Virus record (IMG/VR): IMGVR_UViG_3300032288_005212
Span: 42,085-106,084 of that record
DNA from: a virus
Direction: 5' to 3' (one strand)
Length of the DNA: 64,000 nucleotides
Shown piece by piece: positions 33,126 through 64,000 of this stretch (position 1 is the stretch's first letter; each line of letters opens with the position of its first letter). The notes under the pieces were generated by a model, which was given only the letters and a program-made list of their open reading frames with translations, was not told the origin of the DNA and made no database searches. The translations under genes and the position numbers were made by a program.

Positions 33126-33154
33126 TTGACATATTCACTTTAATGCAGTATAAT
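33126..33154 (+). promoter_or_regulatory. Perfect-consensus sigma70-type promoter
   Basis: TTGACA (33126-33131), 17 bp, TATAAT (33149-33154). The AbrB-like ATG is only 8 bp after the -10 box, so transcript leader length is minimal. Confidence 0.92.
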
Positions 33155-33329: not shown

Positions 33330-33420
33330 TAAATACGTTAGTTGCGCTAGTAATTTTATAGAATTCAGTATAATAGTATCAATGATTGGCGTTTGTGTCG
33401 CATCAATACTATTTATGTAA
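33316..33420 (+). CDS. Hydrophobic peptide (34 aa) overlapping the AbrB-like gene
   Basis: MQKIDKYVSCASNFIEFSII then a Val/Ile/Leu stretch to ILFM makes one membrane-spanning helix. The start overlaps the end of the AbrB-like gene by 14 bp. A GAAGAGA site lies upstream. It may be a tiny membrane protein. The stop lies just before the tmRNA acceptor piece. Confidence 0.45.
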   Translation: MQKIDKYVSCASNFIEFSIIVSMIGVCVASILFM

Positions 33421-33424
33421 TTCG

Positions 33425-33760
33425 TTGATGTAGTGTGAGAGATTTTTGGACGGCGGTTCAATTCCGCCCACCTCCACCTAAGCACATTCGGCTCCAAATG
33501 CTTAGCCGGCGTTTTAGCGGGTTTCATGCTTGAGTTAGGCGCTCAACTGTTAACGGATGTGTTTAGTTGGGGGTGTTTAGGATTTGACAGGAATCAGCAG
33601 CACTGCGGAGAATCGGCAATGTGAAAGTCGTTAGGATTGGGATTACCCGGTCGAAGAAGCAAAAAAAAGTAAACGCAAACGATGACGTTTATTTTGAGGA
33701 TATTCGCCTAGCGGCGTAACATTCTCGGGGTTTTAGGTTATCCTGGCAACAGAAAACCTT
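33425..33760 (+). ncRNA. ssrA: Circularly permuted (two-piece) tmRNA
   Basis: tmRNA rescues stalled ribosomes. The 3' half comes first: T stem GGCGG (33452-33456), loop TTCAATT, CCGCC, then acceptor strand CACCTCC (33469-33475), A76 and CC. After an intervening segment of about 90 nt, the 5' half starts at 33569 with GGGGGTG, which pairs with CACCTCC, G3-U70 (alanine identity) included. TTTAGGATTTGACAGGAAT matches the tmRNA 5' consensus. The tag frame starts at GCA 33675: ANDDVYFEDIRLAA, stop TAA 33717-33719, with a CGCC/GGCG hairpin at its end. A terminator-like hairpin AGGTT/AACCT with a T run lies at 33735-33763. The 5' end of the primary transcript is not defined by the sequence. Confidence 0.9.
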
Positions 33761-33800
33761 TTTATTACAGCATCTACTGGTGCAGGCTTTAGGAGTATAT

Positions 33801-34148
33801 ATGAAACTCAAGGCTTTTATTTTAAGCAGTTTAATTGCTTTTAATGCTACTGCAGCAGATGCAGTTCTTAGTTGGACATATCCAACTACTTATGAAGATG
33901 GTACAGCTCTCCCAGTATCGGAAATAAGTACCGTTACTATTTATTACGGTTCTACCACAGGATCTTCTGCTTACAAAGTAACTGTAGCTCCTCCTGCAAC
34001 TACATACACTATAACTAACCTTGCAAAAGGTACTTGGTACTTTACTGCTACAGTAACTGCTACAAACGGTTTAGAGTCTGTAAGAAGTGTAGAAGTAAAC
34101 AAATCATTACTTGGCAGCTCAAAGCCAAAAGCCCCAACATTGCGTTAG
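33801..34148 (+). CDS. Exported fibronectin type III-like protein (115 aa)
   Basis: The start is the ATG at 33801 (MKLKAFILSSLIAFNATAADA), behind TAGGAG. The first 20 residues are a signal peptide ending at ATAADA. The rest, VLSWTYPTTYEDGTALPVSE, VTIYYG, and TITNLAKGTWYFTATVTATNGLES, is a fibronectin type III domain. It would be exported and may decorate the virion or be shed; a superinfection role is only a possibility. It directly follows the tmRNA. Confidence 0.7.
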   Translation: MKLKAFILSSLIAFNATAADAVLSWTYPTTYEDGTALPVSEISTVTIYYGSTTGSSAYKVTVAPPATTYTITNLAKGTWYFTATVTATNGLESVRSVEVNKSLLGSSKPKAPTLR

Positions 34149-34159
34149 AGTACTAAAAA

Positions 34160-34531
34160 ATGACACTTGTACACAAACACCTAATTATTCGAGCAGAGGT
34201 TGACCGTGCCCCAAATAATCGTATTTGGGCCGAGGAGTGGCTGAAGCAACTTGTAGAAAAAATTGGCATGAAAGTTTGCGCGGGCCCAATCTCAGAATAT
34301 GTAGATATGCCTGGAAATCGTGGACTAACTGCTGTTGTTATTATTGAAACATCCCACATCGCCCTTCATTGCTGGGATGAGCCTACACCAAATCTTCTTC
34401 AGTTTGACGTTTATTCCTGTGGAGAGTTTGATGTAGCCGAGATTCTAAGAGAGCTAGAACAGTTCGGTCTACTAAAAGTAGAATATAAGTTTCTCGATAG
34501 AGAACATGGGTTAACAGAAATTGCAATTTAA
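34160..34531 (+). CDS. S-adenosylmethionine decarboxylase-like protein (SpeD family, 123 aa)
   Basis: GLTAVVIIETSHIALHCWDE followed by FDVYSCGEF matches the SpeD core (ESHISIHTWPE and DxFTCG). S65 is the would-be pyruvoyl residue, H70 and C87 the catalytic residues. But the residue before S65 is Thr, where typical enzymes have Glu, so the self-cleavage or substrate choice may differ. SpeD makes decarboxylated AdoMet for spermidine. Related proteins have become ornithine or arginine decarboxylases. Length is normal for class 1b proenzymes. Neighbour on both sides within 15 bp. Confidence 0.78.
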   Translation: MTLVHKHLIIRAEVDRAPNNRIWAEEWLKQLVEKIGMKVCAGPISEYVDMPGNRGLTAVVIIETSHIALHCWDEPTPNLLQFDVYSCGEFDVAEILRELEQFGLLKVEYKFLDREHGLTEIAI

Positions 34532-48000: not shown

Positions 48001-48156
48001 TATCGTAATTTCCTCAACTTGGTCGAGTGTTACCGATATACTTTCATCGCTAAGTGTTACAGGTATTTCCTGCACCACTAATCTTTTTGAAGGTACGGTC
48101 GTATCTGATTTTTTAATTATAATTACAGTTGATTTTTTTACTAATATGTTCGCCAT
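47998..48156 (-). CDS. Short tail-operon protein (52 aa)
   Basis: The ATG at 48156 overlaps the end of the 1597-aa gene by 16 bp. MANILVKKSTVIIIKKSDTT continues to a TAA at 47998. Val, Ile and Thr-rich with charged residues, probably beta-rich. It is the last gene of the leftward tail operon. Function is unknown. Confidence 0.5.
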   Translation of the reverse strand: MANILVKKSTVIIIKKSDTTVPSKRLVVQEIPVTLSDESISVTLDQVEEITI

Positions 48157-51100
48157 GTTGTACCATTCCATATCTTAATTGGTTTTGTAACCCAAGCTGT
48201 ACCATTCCATACTTTGAGAGGCTTTAATACCCAAGCCGAACCTGTCCAAACTTTTATCAATCCTCTTGCGGTTGTAATATTTGTTAACTGTCCAGTTAGT
48301 GTATATGTAACTGTTGAAAGTGATAATTTTCTTCCGTACAGAATTTGTATTGAAGTAGAAACATAGCCAGGCTCTACATATCCACCTTCTACATATCCAG
48401 ATAGTTCGATTGCTTTTGTAGTCGCTGTCAGTACATATGTGCGACGGAAAGCTAGTGTTCCGCCAGTTAAATTGTACTGGGCAGTGTCGAGCGGTAATTT
48501 TTCTCCCCCAATTAAACTTGCATCATTTCTAGTGAGAGTATAGGCTCCAGTATCTGCAACGAGTCTCTTATTCGCTGACAGGTTTGCTGGTTGCAGATTT
48601 TCGTTATAAGTCTGTGTATCCGTAATAAGTCGACGATTTCTGAGCAAATTCGCGGACTGTAAATTTTCTGAGAAAGTTCCGGTTTCTGCAATTAATCTAC
48701 GATTTCTAAGTAGATTGGCTGGCTGTAAGTTTTCGTTATAAGTTTGGCTATCTAGACTTAATTTACGATCTACTCTTAAAACAGTATCATTTATCGTAAT
48801 AGTATAGGCGCGGCTATTTGCAATTATATTACCAGCACTTGCAAAGTTGAGTGCATTTCCTATCAGAGAATAGTTTTGAGTAGTCGCACTAAGGAAACGA
48901 GCTACTCGTAGGTTTGCGGGCTGAAGATTTTCATTGTAAGTTTGCGTGTCTGCGACAAGTCGACGGTTTCTAAGTACATTTGCTGGCTGTAGATTTTCGT
49001 TATAAGTCTGTGTATCTGCTACAAGGCGACGAGAAACTCTTAAATTCGCAGGCTGCAGATTTTCTGCAAAAGTTCCGCTTTCTGCTACTAATCTTTTTCC
49101 AGTATTAATATTTGCTGGCTGAAGATTTTCATTGTAAGTTTGAGTATCTGCAACTAATCTACTATTACGGAGTACATTTGCAGGCTGTAAATTTTCATTA
49201 TAAGTTTGAGTATCAGCTACTAATCTACGATTGCGTAGTATGTTAGCAGCTTTTAAATCATCATTGTAAGTCTGTACATCAGCTACTAATCTACGATTAC
49301 GCAGTATATTTGCTGACTGAAGATTTTCGTTATAAGTTTGAGATTCTGCTATTAATTTACGATTGCGTAGTATGTTAGCAGGCTGTAAATTTTCATTATA
49401 AGTTTGTACAGCGGCAAGTAATTTACGAGCTACAAAAAGATTTGCAGGTTGTAGATTTTCATTATAAGTCTGTACGTCAGCAACTATTCGACGTCCGCGA
49501 AGTAGGTTTGCTGGTTGTAAATTTTCGTTATAAGTCTGAGAGTCTGACGTTAATCTACGAGAAACTATTAAAGTTGCATCGTTTCGAGTAAGAGTGTAAC
49601 TACGAGTATCAGTTTTGAGTACGTTTGCAGATACAAAAGAAAGTACTTTTCCGCTTAAAGTATAAGTTTGAGTAGTTGCAATAACTACTCGACTATATTT
49701 AAATGTCGCGTCGTTTCGAGTAAGAATGAGAGCTCTCGTATCTGCGACTAATCTACGATTGCGTAGTATGTTTGCAGGTTGTAGATTTTCATTATAAGTT
49801 TGAGTATCTGCAACTAATCTACGATTTCTCAGTAGATTGGCTGGTTGTAAATTCTCGTTATAAGTCTGTGTATCAGCTACTAATCTACGGTTTCTCAGTA
49901 TATTCGCAGGTTGTAAATTCTCGTTATAAGTCTGTGTATCAGCTACTAATCTACGGTTTCTCAGTATATTCGCAGGTTGTAAATTCTCGTTATAAGTTTG
50001 AGTATCTGCTACTAATCTACGATTGCGTAGTATGTTTGCAGCTTTTAAATCTTCGTTATAAGTCTGTGTATCAGCTACTAATCTACGATTGCGTAGTATG
50101 TTCGCTGGCTGTAATGTCTCAGTATACGCTCGAGTATCAGCTACTAATCTACGGTTTCTCAGTAGATTGGCTGGTTGTAAATTCTCGTTATAAGTCTGTG
50201 TATCAGCTACTAATCTACGATTGCGTAGTATGTTCGCTGGCTGTAATGTCTCAGTATACGCTCGAGTATCAGCTACTAATCTACGGTTTCTCAGTAGATT
50301 GGCTGGCTGAAGATTTTCATTATAAGTTTGAGTTGTAGCTACTAATCTACGATTGCGTAGTATGTTCGCTGGCTGTAAATTAAGCGCAAAAGAACGAGAG
50401 TCAGCAACTAAGGTGCGACTCTGTGTTATTGTAGTATAAGTTAATTCCGCAGACCAAGTGCCCGCAGACCAAATATAATATTTAAATGTATCAGGACCAG
50501 CTGCACTTACAATACCAGTCGAGTTAATCGAAACTGGATATGAGTTTGTAACAGTGGTAGTTCTATAAAGTATTTGGTCTCCGACCTGTATGGCTGGAGA
50601 TTGCCCATTATAAATGCAAGTTGAAAGCGCCGCCTGAGAAATATCAGTTACGACATGAAGAGCATATCCTGCAGGTGCTTCAATTGTTATTTGCTTACTG
50701 GCAAGTATTCCAATTATTGTAGTAGGTGGGCCAGTAAGCGTAAAGGCTTGCGCTGTAATTGGAATATTTAATCCACGAAAGAAGAATAAATTTTGTCCTG
50801 CTACGGTAAAAGTGCCTTTTTCTGCGGTGAGCGTTTTTTGCGAAGAAGTTTTTGTTAAAGTAGCATCATTGCCAGTAAACGTATAAGCGCGAACATCCGC
50901 AGTTAGCTTTCTGTTATATTTTATCCCTATTGAATCTTCAACAATAGAATATGCTACAAAGTTATCCCCACGACTTGTATTTACATTAGTTCTATTGTAA
51001 TATATGCCAGGTTGACCAGTTGAATAAGTGTTATCAGTTACAGTATCTATTAATACATTATTTATGTACGCAGATATTTGATTACCTACTACTCTTAATG

Positions 51101-52934
51101 TTAAAGTATCCCCGACTACAGGAACTATCGGTACTGTGCCTATTATAGTACCATTAGTGCCATCTATTCGTAGTATTGCTCTACCGCCATCATTAAAACC
51201 ATCAATACTTAGTGCATACCCTCCAGAAGAAGTGAGCCTTACACCAGGCCCTATTCTATCACCTACGTTTAAAGCTGTAATTAATATTTCTGATTCATGA
51301 TTGTCTAAAAAGTCATAGACAGAAGTTGAAACCGCCGCATAACTTCTAGTGGAGCCGTCGGTTTCGTAAAATTCTCCATTAAAAATATCTATGTCATTTA
51401 ATAAATTTGTCCAGTTTCCAGAACTTACTGTTGCTAATTCTCCATTCGAATAATTAAACGTGTCACGATACTTTAACTGGTCCGATAGTCTAAATAGCCC
51501 TAGATTTCCAAATACTCTTCTTCCAACTTTTAAATTTACAGAATCAACTCCGACGGTATAGCCAACGAAGTTATCGCCTCTTGAGGCATTTATATTACCA
51601 CGATTATAATAAATTCCAGGTTGTCCAGTACTATAGGTATTATCTGTAACTGTTTCTATCAATATTCCATTTTTATAAGCAGAAATTTGATTCCCAACAG
51701 CACGAATTTTGAGAGTATCTCCATTAATTGGAGCAATTGTAAGAGTACCTATTTTTACACGAGTAGTGCCATCCAGCCTATAAATACTTCGTGATGGATC
51801 ATTTGTTCCATCAGCATGAATAATATAGGCCCCGGAAGCAGTCACTCTTACCGCAGGGCCAGGATAGTCTCCTGACCCTAGTAGACTAACCAATATCTCT
51901 GCTTCTTGATTGTCATGGAAATCATATGTTGAAGTATTTAATTCAGCATAGCTATTTGAGCCCAAACTTTCATAAAATCGTCCATTTAATATATCAATTG
52001 AGCCATTTCTATCTACCCAAACTCCTGAGCTTACTGTAGATAATACGCCGTTTGAGTAATCAAACGTATCGCGATACTTTAACTGATCTGACACCGTAAG
52101 TTGGCAGGTATTTCCATAAACATATCTACTACGCGATAAGTTTGCATCTCGTAGTGTCTCATTATACGTCTGTGTATCCGCCGTAAGAGTACGCTGTAGA
52201 GCAGCTTCTCGAATTCGAAGCAAAGCAAGCGGGCCACGAACGTTTGTAGTTGTTCCACCAGCAGTTGCCGTAATTGTTGGTGCAGCACTCGCTGTTCCAC
52301 TTGTTACAGAAGCGTATGCAGTAAAACCACCAATATCGTTTCCAGCATTACTGTCTGGCTCATTTAATTCTGTTGCAGTTGCAAAAACTGCACCAGTTGC
52401 GCTAATTACGTGTGCGGAAAACTGTGTTGGTGTGGTAACGTCAGTCGGAATAGACATAGCCCAAATCGCAAGATCTCCAGTTTGAAGACCTGGGTTTGCA
52501 GCAAGAGTTACTGAAACGTTTCCACCAGTAGTATCTTGTCCGTCAGAGGCACCATAAGAAATTGTTCCTCCACCCGTAGGAATTCGAACTATAAAGGCAA
52601 AAGATACATCATTTCCACCAAGTGTAACTGATAAAGTTCCGCTTTGGTTTGCAACTGGGCTATTCCAGCTATATATTCTTATATTTGTATCACCCTGATC
52701 CGCTGCAACTGGAGAGCCGGCTGCAGCATATCCGCCACCACCAATACGCTCCTCTTGAAGAGTCCAGCCAGTTGGGGTTGTAACCGTACCTCCACCATTA
52801 GTTGTAGGTTTTTGACCGACAAAAAGCAAAACGACATCAGTCGCTGCAATATTTGCAGGATATGCTGGTGCAACAGTCGTTCCTCCGGATGCGGAGTAAG
52901 CTGTTGCTGCTGCGACTGGTGTACCTAAAGCCAT
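48141..52934 (-). CDS. Very large repetitive tail/receptor-binding protein (1597 aa)
   Basis: The N-terminal 235 residues (MALGTPVAAATAYSAS, then PTGWTLQEE, and AFIVRIP) are a compact beta-rich domain typical of phage tail proteins. Two LamG-like modules follow, each with QLKYRDTFxYSNG, NQISAY and YSTGQPGIYYNR. From about residue 830 to 1480 come about 30 copies of a 22-residue unit (pattern RRLVADTQTYNENLQPANxL). The C-terminus has three W-N/T-G-x-x-W repeats. It is probably an elongated adhesin or fibre. Confidence in the role is moderate; the structure is clear. Confidence 0.8.
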   Translation of the reverse strand: MALGTPVAAATAYSASGGTTVAPAYPANIAATDVVLLFVGQKPTTNGGGTVTTPTGWTLQEERIGGGGYAAAGSPVAADQGDTNIRIYSWNSPVANQSGTLSVTLGGNDVSFAFIVRIPTGGGTISYGASDGQDTTGGNVSVTLAANPGLQTGDLAIWAMSIPTDVTTPTQFSAHVISATGAVFATATELNEPDSNAGNDIGGFTAYASVTSGTASAAPTITATAGGTTTNVRGPLALLRIREAALQRTLTADTQTYNETLRDANLSRSRYVYGNTCQLTVSDQLKYRDTFDYSNGVLSTVSSGVWVDRNGSIDILNGRFYESLGSNSYAELNTSTYDFHDNQEAEILVSLLGSGDYPGPAVRVTASGAYIIHADGTNDPSRSIYRLDGTTRVKIGTLTIAPINGDTLKIRAVGNQISAYKNGILIETVTDNTYSTGQPGIYYNRGNINASRGDNFVGYTVGVDSVNLKVGRRVFGNLGLFRLSDQLKYRDTFNYSNGELATVSSGNWTNLLNDIDIFNGEFYETDGSTRSYAAVSTSVYDFLDNHESEILITALNVGDRIGPGVRLTSSGGYALSIDGFNDGGRAILRIDGTNGTIIGTVPIVPVVGDTLTLRVVGNQISAYINNVLIDTVTDNTYSTGQPGIYYNRTNVNTSRGDNFVAYSIVEDSIGIKYNRKLTADVRAYTFTGNDATLTKTSSQKTLTAEKGTFTVAGQNLFFFRGLNIPITAQAFTLTGPPTTIIGILASKQITIEAPAGYALHVVTDISQAALSTCIYNGQSPAIQVGDQILYRTTTVTNSYPVSINSTGIVSAAGPDTFKYYIWSAGTWSAELTYTTITQSRTLVADSRSFALNLQPANILRNRRLVATTQTYNENLQPANLLRNRRLVADTRAYTETLQPANILRNRRLVADTQTYNENLQPANLLRNRRLVADTRAYTETLQPANILRNRRLVADTQTYNEDLKAANILRNRRLVADTQTYNENLQPANILRNRRLVADTQTYNENLQPANILRNRRLVADTQTYNENLQPANLLRNRRLVADTQTYNENLQPANILRNRRLVADTRALILTRNDATFKYSRVVIATTQTYTLSGKVLSFVSANVLKTDTRSYTLTRNDATLIVSRRLTSDSQTYNENLQPANLLRGRRIVADVQTYNENLQPANLFVARKLLAAVQTYNENLQPANILRNRKLIAESQTYNENLQSANILRNRRLVADVQTYNDDLKAANILRNRRLVADTQTYNENLQPANVLRNSRLVADTQTYNENLQPANINTGKRLVAESGTFAENLQPANLRVSRRLVADTQTYNENLQPANVLRNRRLVADTQTYNENLQPANLRVARFLSATTQNYSLIGNALNFASAGNIIANSRAYTITINDTVLRVDRKLSLDSQTYNENLQPANLLRNRRLIAETGTFSENLQSANLLRNRRLITDTQTYNENLQPANLSANKRLVADTGAYTLTRNDASLIGGEKLPLDTAQYNLTGGTLAFRRTYVLTATTKAIELSGYVEGGYVEPGYVSTSIQILYGRKLSLSTVTYTLTGQLTNITTARGLIKVWTGSAWVLKPLKVWNGTAWVTKPIKIWNGTTWRTY
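48530..50430 (-). repeat. Long 66-bp tandem repeat array within the tail gene
   Basis: The stretch consists of about 30 variant copies of a 66-bp unit encoding RRLVADTQTYNENLQPAN-type peptides. Some copies are replaced by other motifs (LTRNDAT, TETLQPAN). Adjacent copies near 49860-50290 are nearly identical at the DNA level, a sign of recent unequal recombination. Confidence 0.9.
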
Positions 52935-59910: not shown

Positions 59911-60330
59911 TTAACTGGTACAAAAATTATGCTGATCTATTCGAATAGTGCGCTTACAAAAAGTCTTTTTCCAGAATGGATTTGCTTTTCGTGGATTATA
60001 ATAATAATAAGAATCCTTTACGAGATTTTGGTACTTTCCGAGTAGTACATTTTTTGCCACTTCTTCACTGATTTTCCATTCTTCGAGATCGATTGGTTTT
60101 GTAGAAGTACAAGACCAACTAAACTGGCAGGTCTCATAAACAACTTCACAAATAGTTTTTGGAAAGTCAGGATGTTGCAGTCGATTAAGAGTAACATAAC
60201 CAACTGCAATTTTTCCTGCTTCCATCTCTCCTCTTGCTTCGTGATAGATATTCTGCGTGAGGCAGAAAGTTTGAAATTTGTCCGAAGCATTTACAGAAAT
60301 TGAAAATAATAAAAGAAATAATAATCTCAT
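59911..60330 (-). CDS. Exported cell-wall hydrolase, SleB-like (139 aa)
   Basis: MRLLFLLLFSISVNASDKF is a signal peptide of about 15 residues. NIYHEARGEMEAGKIAVGYVTLNRLQHPDFPKTICEVVY (split in shorter blocks) and SYYYYNPRKANPFWKK match the SleB/Hydrolase_2 family that cleaves peptidoglycan cross-bridges or glycan strands. It may help the tail reach the membrane or act at lysis. It overlaps the tail-tip gene by 4 bp. Confidence 0.82.
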   Translation of the reverse strand: MRLLFLLLFSISVNASDKFQTFCLTQNIYHEARGEMEAGKIAVGYVTLNRLQHPDFPKTICEVVYETCQFSWSCTSTKPIDLEEWKISEEVAKNVLLGKYQNLVKDSYYYYNPRKANPFWKKTFCKRTIRIDQHNFCTS

Positions 60331-63300
60331 GCAAGATTTCCTAAACGTACACGAAGAACACCTGCTGCATATATATCAATTCTATTGTTAGTGGCATCCA
60401 TAAATATTCCAGAAACTCCACCAGCTGGGCTTGCTTTAAGGCTAGATATTGCTAATTGAGTAGTAGTTATAGCATTTGCGGCAATTACCCCAGTCTTTAA
60501 GTAACTTGTTTCTTGTATCCAAGCAGTCGAAGCAGGACTATACCTCCAAGCTGTTTGAGACGGAGTTGCAGCACTATTTTCTACTATAGCACTATAACCT
60601 AATTCGGGACTAACGACTTCACCACTACTTGGAGGCCCTAAGTTTGCCCCAGCAGTACCTGTCCCAGTCCCCGTTCCTGATCTTTTAAAGAAATAAAATC
60701 CTGGACCACCCTGAGGTCCGGTGGCGCCGTCTGTGCCATCAATACCATCAATACCATTAGTACCACTTTTTGATTTAGAAAATTTTTGTGTTTTTGTTAA
60801 AGAAAAAGAAGTGCCAGTACTTGTTTTTCCCGTTATAGTAAATGTAGCTGTAGAAGTATCAGTACCAGAAGCCACCCCAGCTGTATAATTATAACTTACA
60901 TAAGTTGTAAAGTTATTTAAAGTTGGAATAGTTATATTAGTTCCTACAGCAGATACAGTCCAAGTACCAGCAGTAGTTCCTAAACCATTATAAGTTAATA
61001 AGTTTGCACCTTCATATACACGTATTTCTGTTCCAGAATTTGTATAAGTGCTAACAGCTCCTGTACTGCTTGCTGGAAACACATGAGATTCATTTGATAA
61101 AGTAGCAACTACAGCATTTGAAGCAGAGTTTACAACTGCCACTCCCTGCTCATCTAATTTAGTAGTAAATCCTCCAGCAGCATATAATTCTGCTTTTATA
61201 GAAGTACACCCAGAAGTAGGAGTATACACAGTACTAGATTCATTAACACTACTTGCGTATGATTCCGTGCCAGAACCGTTTTCGTATATTTTAAATCTTC
61301 CTGCATATGCTGATGCAGCGGCTATTCCTACCTGTGAAAAAGAAGAAAAAGTTACCGAAGTTGGAGTAAAAGTATTTGCATCATTTTTAGCTAAAGCAGC
61401 TACACTAGATGTTAGCCAATAGGAAGTAGATGAAGCTCCGTCCTGTGCAATTAATCTTGCTGGACTTGTCCATTCTCCAATTGGTATAAAGTCTGTTGGA
61501 CTATTTTGTGCTGCAGTAGCTTGAATTGCCCATAAATAAGCTCCTCCAGTAATAGGAACTTCTGGACTCCAAGCAGAAGGTTGATTAGTAATAGCTCCGG
61601 TACTAAAAGTATAAGTAGCAGTAGCAGGAGTTGTACCTACTGCTGGAGCTGTTGAAGTACCTGTTCTTTGATATAGAAGAACTGTAGCTACGTTTAAGCC
61701 ATTTGTACCATCATTTCCATTCTGAGATAATAATACCGGTGAAGTCCATTCAGTACTTAATACTTGATCAGTATTAGTAGTTGAACTAGCAGTAGCTACA
61801 GTTACATATAATGGGCTTGTTCCAGTTGGAATAGTTTTAGACCATCCATTAGACAATGTTGTAGTAATAGAAGGAGTGGGGGAGAAACTATAATCTACCG
61901 TTCCTGGATTATCTGTTGGTGCTACGTTAACTCTTTTATAGGCATATATTTGGGCTGTATTGGCACCAGAAGTACCAGAAGTACCATCCTGTGCTATTAA
62001 TCTTGCTGGGCTTGCCCACTCTCCTATGCCAATAGTATCTGTTGGACTATTTTGTGCTGCGGTAGCTTGAATTGCCCATAAATAAGCTCCTCCAGTAATA
62101 GGAACTTGAGGACTCCACCCAGAAGGAGGATTTGCTACATCTCCACTACTAAAAGTATAAGTAGCAGTAGCAGGAGTTGTACCTACTGCTGGAGCTGTTG
62201 AAGTACCTGTTCTTTGATATAAAAATACTGTAGCAGTATTTAATCCATTAATTCCATTAGTACCATCGGTACCGGACAGCAAAACAGGGCTACTCCATTC
62301 ACCACTAGATATTTGATCTGTAAGGCTAGTTGAAAGTGCGGAAGCTACAGTTACATACAGCGGACTAGTCCCGCTTGGAATAGTTTTAGACCAACCGTTT
62401 GATAAAGTAACTGGTGAAGTTATAGATGATGAAGAAAAAGTATATTCTATATTTCCAGGATTATCTGTAGGGGCTATATTTACTCTCTTATAAGCGTATA
62501 CTTGAGCATTATTTGACCCTGCAGCACCAGCAGCACCATTTTGAGATATTAACCTAGCTGGGCTTGCCCATTCACCAACATTTATTACATCCGTTGGAGA
62601 GTTTGAAGCAGCTGTAGCTTGAATTGCCCATAAATAATCTCCACCACTGATAGGCACTGAAGTTGTCCACCCTGTGGGAGGACTTGCAATATTACCACTA
62701 GCAAAAGTATATATAGTATTAGCAGGACTTGTACCTACTGCTGGAACTATACTATTAGTTGTTCTCTGGTACAATAATACTGTAGCAGTATTTAAACCAT
62801 CAAGACCACTTTGACTTAATAATACTGGAGAAGACCATTCTGTACTTAATATTTGATCTGTATTAGTTGATGACAAAGCGGAAGCTATTGTAACATATAA
62901 TGGACTTGTTCCAGTTGGAATAGTTTTAGACCAGCCATTTGATAAAGTAACTGGTGAAGTTATTGAGGGTGTCGGAGAAAAAGAATACTCTACATTTCCT
63001 GGGTTATCTGTAGGAGCTGAACTTACTCTTTTGTAGGCATATACTTGAGTAATATTATTTCCACTAACTCCTGGGGTTCCATTTTGAGATATTAGTCTTG
63101 CTGGGCTTGCCCACTCTCCTATGCCAATAGTGTCTGTTGGACTATTTTGTGCTGCAGTAGCTTGAATTGCCCATAAATAATCTCCACCAGAAATAGGAAT
63201 AGTAGAACTCCAACCACTTGGTTCATTAGTAACAACCCCACTACTAAAAGTATAAGTAGCAGTAGCAGGAGTTGTACCTACTGCTGGAGCTGTTGAAGTA

Positions 63301-64000
63301 GTAGTTCTTTGATATAAAAATACTGTAGCACTATTTAAGCCATCTAAACCATTTTGAGTTAGCAATACTGGAGAAGACCATTCTGTACTTAATATTTGAT
63401 CTGTTGGAGTATCTGATAATGCTGTTGCTATTGTTACATATAGCGGATTAGTGCCGCTTGGAATAGTTTTAGACCAATTATTTGCTAAAGTAACTGGGGA
63501 AACAATTGTAGCGGTAGGAGAAAAAGAATACTCTACATTACCTGGGTTATCTGTAGGAGCTGGACTTACTCTTTTGTAGGCATATACTTGTGCAATATTT
63601 TTACCGGAAGCACCTACCGGACCAGCCTGAGCTATTAATTTAGCAGGACTTGCCCACTCTCCTATAGCTATAATATCGGTAGGTGAGGAAGAAATAGCTG
63701 TGGCTTGAGTAGCCCATAAATAATCTCCACCAGAAGCAGGAATACCTGGACTCCAACCAGTAGGTGGGCTTCCTAAAACACCAGTTGAAAAAGTATAAGT
63801 AGCAGTAGTTGGTGTAGAACCAATTGGTGGTGGAGTAGAGCTAGAAGTTTTTTGATATAAAAATACTGTGGCAGTACTTAATCCATCCAATCCATTTTGA
63901 GCTAGTAATACTGGTGTTGACCATTCTGTACTTAATATTTGATCCGTATTTGTAGTAGAATAAGCAGTAGCTGCAGTAACATATAATGGGTTACTCCCAC
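60327..64000 (-). CDS. J-like tail-tip/host-specificity protein, partial (at least 1224 aa)
   Basis: The frame is open to the right edge, so the N-terminus is missing. A TTG near 63890 that might look like a start lies inside repeats and is not the start. Five or so repeats of about 150 residues (NTATVFLYQRT, WAIQATAAQNSPTD, PLYVTVA) precede a Gly-rich collagen-like DGATGPQGGPG segment. The C-terminal ANAITTTQLAISSLKAS and NNRIDIYAAGVLRVRLGNLA block is typical of J/central tail-tip proteins that bind the receptor. Confidence 0.82.
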   Translation of the reverse strand, partial: GSNPLYVTAATAYSTTNTDQILSTEWSTPVLLAQNGLDGLSTATVFLYQKTSSSTPPPIGSTPTTATYTFSTGVLGSPPTGWSPGIPASGGDYLWATQATAISSSPTDIIAIGEWASPAKLIAQAGPVGASGKNIAQVYAYKRVSPAPTDNPGNVEYSFSPTATIVSPVTLANNWSKTIPSGTNPLYVTIATALSDTPTDQILSTEWSSPVLLTQNGLDGLNSATVFLYQRTTTSTAPAVGTTPATATYTFSSGVVTNEPSGWSSTIPISGGDYLWAIQATAAQNSPTDTIGIGEWASPARLISQNGTPGVSGNNITQVYAYKRVSSAPTDNPGNVEYSFSPTPSITSPVTLSNGWSKTIPTGTSPLYVTIASALSSTNTDQILSTEWSSPVLLSQSGLDGLNTATVLLYQRTTNSIVPAVGTSPANTIYTFASGNIASPPTGWTTSVPISGGDYLWAIQATAASNSPTDVINVGEWASPARLISQNGAAGAAGSNNAQVYAYKRVNIAPTDNPGNIEYTFSSSSITSPVTLSNGWSKTIPSGTSPLYVTVASALSTSLTDQISSGEWSSPVLLSGTDGTNGINGLNTATVFLYQRTGTSTAPAVGTTPATATYTFSSGDVANPPSGWSPQVPITGGAYLWAIQATAAQNSPTDTIGIGEWASPARLIAQDGTSGTSGANTAQIYAYKRVNVAPTDNPGTVDYSFSPTPSITTTLSNGWSKTIPTGTSPLYVTVATASSTTNTDQVLSTEWTSPVLLSQNGNDGTNGLNVATVLLYQRTGTSTAPAVGTTPATATYTFSTGAITNQPSAWSPEVPITGGAYLWAIQATAAQNSPTDFIPIGEWTSPARLIAQDGASSTSYWLTSSVAALAKNDANTFTPTSVTFSSFSQVGIAAASAYAGRFKIYENGSGTESYASSVNESSTVYTPTSGCTSIKAELYAAGGFTTKLDEQGVAVVNSASNAVVATLSNESHVFPASSTGAVSTYTNSGTEIRVYEGANLLTYNGLGTTAGTWTVSAVGTNITIPTLNNFTTYVSYNYTAGVASGTDTSTATFTITGKTSTGTSFSLTKTQKFSKSKSGTNGIDGIDGTDGATGPQGGPGFYFFKRSGTGTGTGTAGANLGPPSSGEVVSPELGYSAIVENSAATPSQTAWRYSPASTAWIQETSYLKTGVIAANAITTTQLAISSLKASPAGGVSGIFMDATNNRIDIYAAGVLRVRLGNLA
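61420..64000 (-). repeat. About 450-bp imperfect tandem repeats in the J-like gene
   Basis: Blocks with the same text (for example ACTGTAGCAGTATTTAA and CCTACTGCTGGAGCTGTTG) recur roughly every 450-490 bp through the edge. They encode the repeated 150-residue beta module. Confidence 0.8.

Follow-up and report, generated by a model that had tools for sequence, protein, structure and literature searches.

A circularly permuted tmRNA gene in a T5-like phage genome and its place among phage and bacterial two-piece tmRNAs

A complete circularly permuted gene for tmRNA, the rescue RNA that releases ribosomes after stalling and adds a tag to the incomplete proteins, lies on the plus strand at 33420-33764 of the window, the 64,000-nt stretch of DNA analysed here, whose numbering is used throughout and which is part of a 106,084-base IMG/VR metagenomic contig. 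The gene stands within a group of tRNA genes called by ARAGORN (Met, Arg and Ser upstream, Pro downstream), between DNA primase/helicase genes and genes for a T5-like DNA polymerase, a helicase, SbcCD and ribonucleotide reductase (RNR), and these surroundings place it inside a phage genome rather than in a flank of host DNA. Cultured T5-like phages of Aeromonas, Providencia and Salmonella have DNA polymerases that share about 43% identity with this one. Neither SmpB nor a second tmRNA was found in the 106-kb record, and no Rfam riboswitch matched within the window.

A sigma-70-type consensus precedes a small MazE-antitoxin-like ORF and the tmRNA (Table 1). This ORF (55 aa, PF04014, 33162-33329) follows the consensus directly, with its ATG about 7 nt past the -10 box, and its mRNA might be leaderless. 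Shortly 3' of the tmRNA gene, a protein of 123 aa resembling S-adenosylmethionine decarboxylase is encoded at 34160-34531 (PF02675, E 1.7e-12), and two minus-strand genes at 48141-52934 and 60327-63890 encode proteins of 1597 and 1187 aa that are almost without family match and are probably virion or tail proteins.

ARAGORN called a permuted tmRNA at 33387-33810 with the tag ANDDVYFEDIRLAA followed by a stop, and the Rfam model RF04321 (tmRNA_permuted) matched over its full length (model 1-213 of 213, span 33420-33719) with 93.7 bits, twice the cut-off of 47 (E 7.6e-17 for the 64-kb window), the halves being in order and the tag frame open. From 5' to 3', the gene is made up of the P2 3' strands, T arm, acceptor 3' strand, A-CC-U, intervening sequence (IVS), acceptor 5' strand, D-loop region, P2 5' strands, tag frame and 3' pseudoknot, and an unconstrained minimum-free-energy fold of 33425-33760 recovered the T arm, the acceptor stem, P2 between the halves and the IVS stem (z -3.8). 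The anatomy of a permuted tmRNA is well supported, and what an earlier note had read from the letters of this locus was borne out in several respects: the gene is permuted and phage-borne, the acceptor half precedes the coding half at a distance given as about 90 nt and measured as 89 nt, the acceptor strands GGGGGUG and CACCUCC form 7 of 7 pairs including the alanine identity pair G3-U70, and a CACTGC/GTAGTG helix, suggested there as possible, can form in the P2 region between 33430-33435 and 33601-33607. RF04321 and ARAGORN, the kinds of check that the note had proposed, both recognised the gene rather than failing on it. Among the clade-specific Rfam models, run with relaxed thresholds, beta_tmRNA (RF01850) scored highest, its 63.5 bits lying below the gathering score of 84; since other bacterial genes reach similar scores below this cut-off, membership of RF01850 is not established, and a beta origin read from the score was dropped. 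The window gene is real and well formed, a probably functional tmRNA of a known kind.

Table 1. Features of the permuted tmRNA gene and its upstream region (window numbering).
Feature	Position	Strand	Basis and remarks
Sigma-70-type promoter, TTGACA-17-TATAAT	33126..33154	+	12/12 consensus positions; consensus match only
Acceptor piece, 5' part: P2 3' strands incl. GUAGUG 33430-33435	33420..33448	+	RF04321, fold; mature start approximate
T arm, GGCGG-UUCAAUU-CCGCC	33452..33468	+	sequence, parsing, fold
Acceptor 3' strand CACCUCC 33469-33475, discriminator A 33476, CCU 33477-33479 (not CCA)	33469..33479	+	sequence, parsing
IVS-closing stem, 5' strand CUAAGCACAUUCG	33478..33490	+	register conserved and covarying, 40 distinct sequences
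IVS, 89 nt, removal expected on maturation	33480..33568	+	parsing
IVS-closing stem, 3' strand CGGAUGUGUUUAG	33554..33566	+	register conserved and covarying, 40 distinct sequences
Acceptor 5' strand GGGGGUG with G3-U70, coding-piece start	33569..33575	+	sequence, parsing, fold; putative RNase P site before 33569
D-loop region GGAUUUGACAGG and P2 5' strands incl. CACUGC	33576..33620	+	RF04321, fold
Extra internal hairpin GAUUGGG-AUUA-CCCGGUC	33635..33652	+	comparison of 8 sequences
Tag frame ANDDVYFEDIRLAA and stop; resume codon GCA 33675, preceded by GUAAAC; TAA 33717-33719	33675..33719	+	ARAGORN, RF04321
3' H-type pseudoknot, loop GGCAACAGAA 33745-33754	33727..33759	+	layout and loop as in bacterial permuted tmRNAs
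Pseudoknot pairings: GGGGU 33727-33731 with AUCCU 33740-33744; AGGUU 33735-33739 with AACCU 33755-33759		+	

In the coding piece, the D-loop region deviates from the usual GGUUUCGACAGG, and the internal hairpin that follows is common, among the eight genes compared, only to the window gene and two viral relatives (L031 and L017), with one compensatory change, G-C being replaced by A-U in L031. The tag frame has an Ala resume codon, a stop and a hydrophobic ...AA end, and its C-terminal LAA is retained in close phage relatives. The tag exceeds the most frequent tag length (10 aa) and belongs to a family, AND..YFED.RLAA, found in the window and three viral contigs (L059, L246, L247); neither the tag nor its family occurred in the 84,980 bacterial and archaeal species genomes scanned. 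The pseudoknot loop is identical to that of alphaproteobacterial-type genes. Taken by itself, this sequence forms the pseudoknot with only a marginal advantage over shuffles (p 0.10), and the case for it rests on the conserved loop and its position. The coding piece ends at about 33760-33764, the pseudoknot stopping near the end of the interval treated in the earlier note.

From pattern scans of IMG/VR, supplemented by named phages, 46 distinct permuted genes in viral contigs or phage genomes could be parsed, some of the scanned contigs being possibly bacterial flanks of prophages. The 7-bp acceptor stem with G3-U70 is present in all 46, and acceptor pair 68 covaries; the scan patterns had prescribed no more than the greater part of the acceptor 3' strand and the parser had required at least 6 of the 7 pairs, and the strength of this check comes from the pairing of all seven positions, from G3-U70 and from the double changes at pair 68. 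At the acceptor end, the window gene encodes CCU where CCA is expected, and an encoded A76 is also missing in many viral relatives and in several Burkholderiales genes. The sequence of the T arm and acceptor was rejected as a host marker, since the tmRNAs that contain its exact 31-mer are mostly one-piece ones from Stenotrophomonas and its relatives. Several viral permuted tmRNAs (L019, L033, L035, L082, L088 and others) encode unusually long tags, such as AKANTGEVTVSGKNVKFSARTAQRQSLAV, and make up a tight clade of their own in the tree.

The IVS of the window gene is closed by a 13-bp stem. The IVS ends pair better than shuffles in 43 of 45 genes (p < 0.05), nearly always in a single register that continues the acceptor stem; in this register 455 of 520 cells are paired in 40 distinct sequences, against a mean of 342 and a maximum of 378 when the 3' halves were re-partnered and at most 237 in slid registers. 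The first scan pattern had fixed AAG at the 5' side of the stem, so that three positions were not free, but covariation is seen at the positions further in. The stem includes the base at the A76 place, which varies together with its IVS partner; an A is not encoded there in roughly half of the genes, among them the window gene, from which we infer that the end would be trimmed and CCA added. By eye, the stem is also seen in bacterial genes, namely in 10 of 11 from Burkholderiales and, among the 28 alphaproteobacterial-type ones whose IVS exceeds 20 nt, in about 19; it is therefore general to permuted precursors, and the idea that it is phage-specific was rejected. These positions are unpaired in the shown consensus of both RF04321 and RF01850, and we found no earlier description of the stem in the literature consulted, older key work lying outside that search. 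A covarying stem of this kind makes precursor processing testable.

A related DNA polymerase is encoded in 15 IMG/VR contigs, in none of which a tmRNA adjoins the polymerase gene; one of them, a 92-kb T5-like relative whose polymerase is 76% identical, carries a permuted tmRNA at another locus, with the tag ANDEVYDLAIAA. A protein-based search for relatives using a widespread gene gave nothing useful.

In a tree built from alphaproteobacterial-type, Burkholderiales-type and viral genes together (these bacterial labels being read from Rfam score and tags), the window tmRNA joins L031 (support 100/94). The pair belongs to a cluster of 11 (93/83) made up of phage genes only, among them those of the two named phages, BUCTxx99 and QDWS595. 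An initial tree without beta bacteria had separated bacteria from viruses only because a beta-type pattern had picked the viral rows, and it was replaced. Grouping of the window gene with the sampled core Burkholderiales, a group named after the tree had been seen, was weakly rejected (p-AU 0.037); its grouping with the alphas (0.13) was not rejected, nor was a single clade of all betas (0.13) or of all bacteria (0.21). Because the alignment has about 320 columns and several branches are long, the deep branching order is unsure. The capture from a two-piece host that the earlier note had proposed thus receives no backing from the tree, in which the gene groups with phage tmRNAs and a recent capture from the sampled Burkholderiales is weakly rejected. 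Most sampled Burkholderiales genes fall inside the viral diversity, a nesting that is weakly supported and in which the viral rows were chosen by the beta-type pattern; on this ground the permuted tmRNA of Burkholderiales may itself derive from phages, as part of an old, diverse, phage-maintained lineage passing from one phage to another unrelated one and able to work whichever tmRNA form the host has, a broad scenario that we consider speculative and on balance unlikely.

Nor is the form of a phage tmRNA a safe guide to that of its host, as the earlier note had assumed in deducing a two-piece host. The record of the Stenotrophomonas phage BUCTxx99 contains a permuted tmRNA that it leaves without annotation, yet none of five S. 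maltophilia genomes contains a permuted tmRNA above the RF04321 cut-off and the tmRNAs at Stenotrophomonas loci are one-piece. Above the same cut-off, permuted tmRNAs were detected in 2 of 185 genomes of the class to which S. maltophilia belongs and, in a patchy distribution, in 11 of 250 sampled genomes of the order of the beta-type genome (Burkholderiales). The window gene and its relatives suggest that phages keep their own two-piece tmRNA lineage, in at least one case with a one-piece host. The easy inference from phage to host form is thereby broken, and the Stenotrophomonas/BUCTxx99 pair offers a system for asking whether a two-piece phage tmRNA works beside a one-piece host tmRNA.

As to function, we regard it as very likely that the window gene encodes a functional two-piece tmRNA, for which expression, processing, alanine charging, tagging and a benefit to the phage are predicted. 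Most likely it would act in trans-translation during infection with the SmpB of the host, none having been found in the record. A single transcript would fold so that the acceptor arm and IVS form one long stem, and host tRNA-processing enzymes would excise the IVS, with RNase P cutting at 33568/33569 and a 3' endo- or exonuclease acting near 33476-33479, A76 being supplied by the CCA-adding enzyme. Pairing in the acceptor stem and P2 would hold together the two resulting RNAs, of about 60 and about 190 nt, which would receive alanine by way of G3-U70 and then be bound by host SmpB; they would enter ribosomes stalled on broken mRNA, as expected from degradation of host transcripts in infection, add A+ANDDVYFEDIRLAA to the stalled product and release the ribosome. 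Speaking for this reading are the RF04321 and ARAGORN calls, the covariation of the acceptor and IVS stems, the pseudoknot loop, the compensatory change in the hairpin, the LAA kept in close phage relatives, the permuted tmRNA of the T5-like relative and the location in a tRNA cluster; counted against it are CCU in place of CCA, the deviating D-loop region and the long tag with its absence from the genomes scanned.

Some of these features could be accommodated otherwise. The phage RNA could be a decoy or competitor that, bearing a tag of its own, occupies stalled ribosomes or the SmpB of the host and so takes the place of the host tmRNA, so that phage products are spared or the protease receiving tagged proteins is changed, rather than rescue capacity being added. 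A tag that is phage-specific in the collections searched and a phage record in which no SmpB was found would fit such a role, as would the phage DS6A form, which consists of little beyond the tRNA-like domain and reportedly inhibits the endogenous tmRNA in E. coli (PMC11915505, PMC4131195); nevertheless, all parts for trans-translation are intact in the window gene, including tag, stop and C-terminal LAA, and a decoy would have no need of a conserved frame, which makes this explanation improbable.

CCU for CCA, the altered D-loop region and an RF04321 score below that of many bacterial permuted tmRNAs (up to 176) might instead mark a decaying, non-functional passenger captured from a bacterial chromosome. 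This seems very improbable given the intact stems with compensatory changes, the open tag frame similar to that of relatives and the retention of the gene in related phages, and the missing A76 is shared with many viral relatives, in which the base covaries with its IVS partner. That the locus is a chance resemblance or a tRNA-derived false positive deserves hardly any credence: RF04321 does match below its cut-off in many genomes that lack a permuted tmRNA, but here the score is double the cut-off, the ordered halves and open tag frame are accompanied by strong comparative covariation, and such a reading is already contradicted.

The earlier note knew of no permuted tmRNA in a phage, a statement overtaken by the two-piece tmRNAs published in 2022 for Methylophilales phage Melnitz and Pelagibacter phage Mosig, along with 53 ARAGORN calls in public phage genomes (PMC9004378), and by the 46 genes parsed here; RF04321 is also described, as are 79 tmRNA sequences from phages that cover all forms (PMC11915505). 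Phage tmRNAs have been hypothesised to keep the hijacked machinery working or to degrade host proteins (PMC9004378, PMC11915505). What is new, as far as checked, is the T5-like carrier, the two unannotated cases in cultured phages, the mismatch with host form and the covariation of the IVS stem; known carriers of two-piece tmRNA are extended by a T5-like lineage and by the cultured phages BUCTxx99 and QDWS595.

As in the window, the permuted ssrA of Mosig lies in a phage genome, and the RF04321 scores are 93.6 and 93.7 bits, respectively. However, Melnitz and Mosig are marine myophages, whereas the window belongs to a T5-like phage with another tag and an extra hairpin; the Mosig gene exceeds the alpha_tmRNA cut-off, while the top clade-specific model for the window is beta_tmRNA, below cut-off, and Melnitz has a glutamine riboswitch (PMC9004378), unlike the window, where no Rfam riboswitch matched. 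BUCTxx99 (OR529408.1, about 98.6 kb; L242, 2443-2768) carries a permuted tmRNA with the tag ANDDVYVVALAA and an RF04321 score of 100.1 bits, its IVS being only 4 nt long against 89 nt in the window. Alcaligenes phage vB_Af_QDWS595 (OK149171.2; L243, 1946-2322) has an unannotated permuted tmRNA with the tag ANDNVYAAAA; in this member of the Schitoviridae, the tmRNA lies in a tRNA cluster, next to an ARAGORN tRNA with the anticodon tta (stop). Both phages, unlike the window, encode CCA, and they are of types unrelated to it, having no close polymerase. The betaproteobacterial permuted tmRNAs of RF01850 resemble the window gene in the start of the IVS (CACCUAAG..CAUUC), in a T loop of canonical type and, in several of them, in an encoded CCC or CCU. 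The closest tmRNAs in the tree, L031 (ANDDVYSEDFALAA) and L017/L071 (ANDDVYTEEYALAA) from IMG/VR, have the internal hairpin in common with the window, but their IVS is 26-27 nt long rather than 89, CCA is encoded and the tmRNA adjoins other genes; L031 and the window also have further genes in common.
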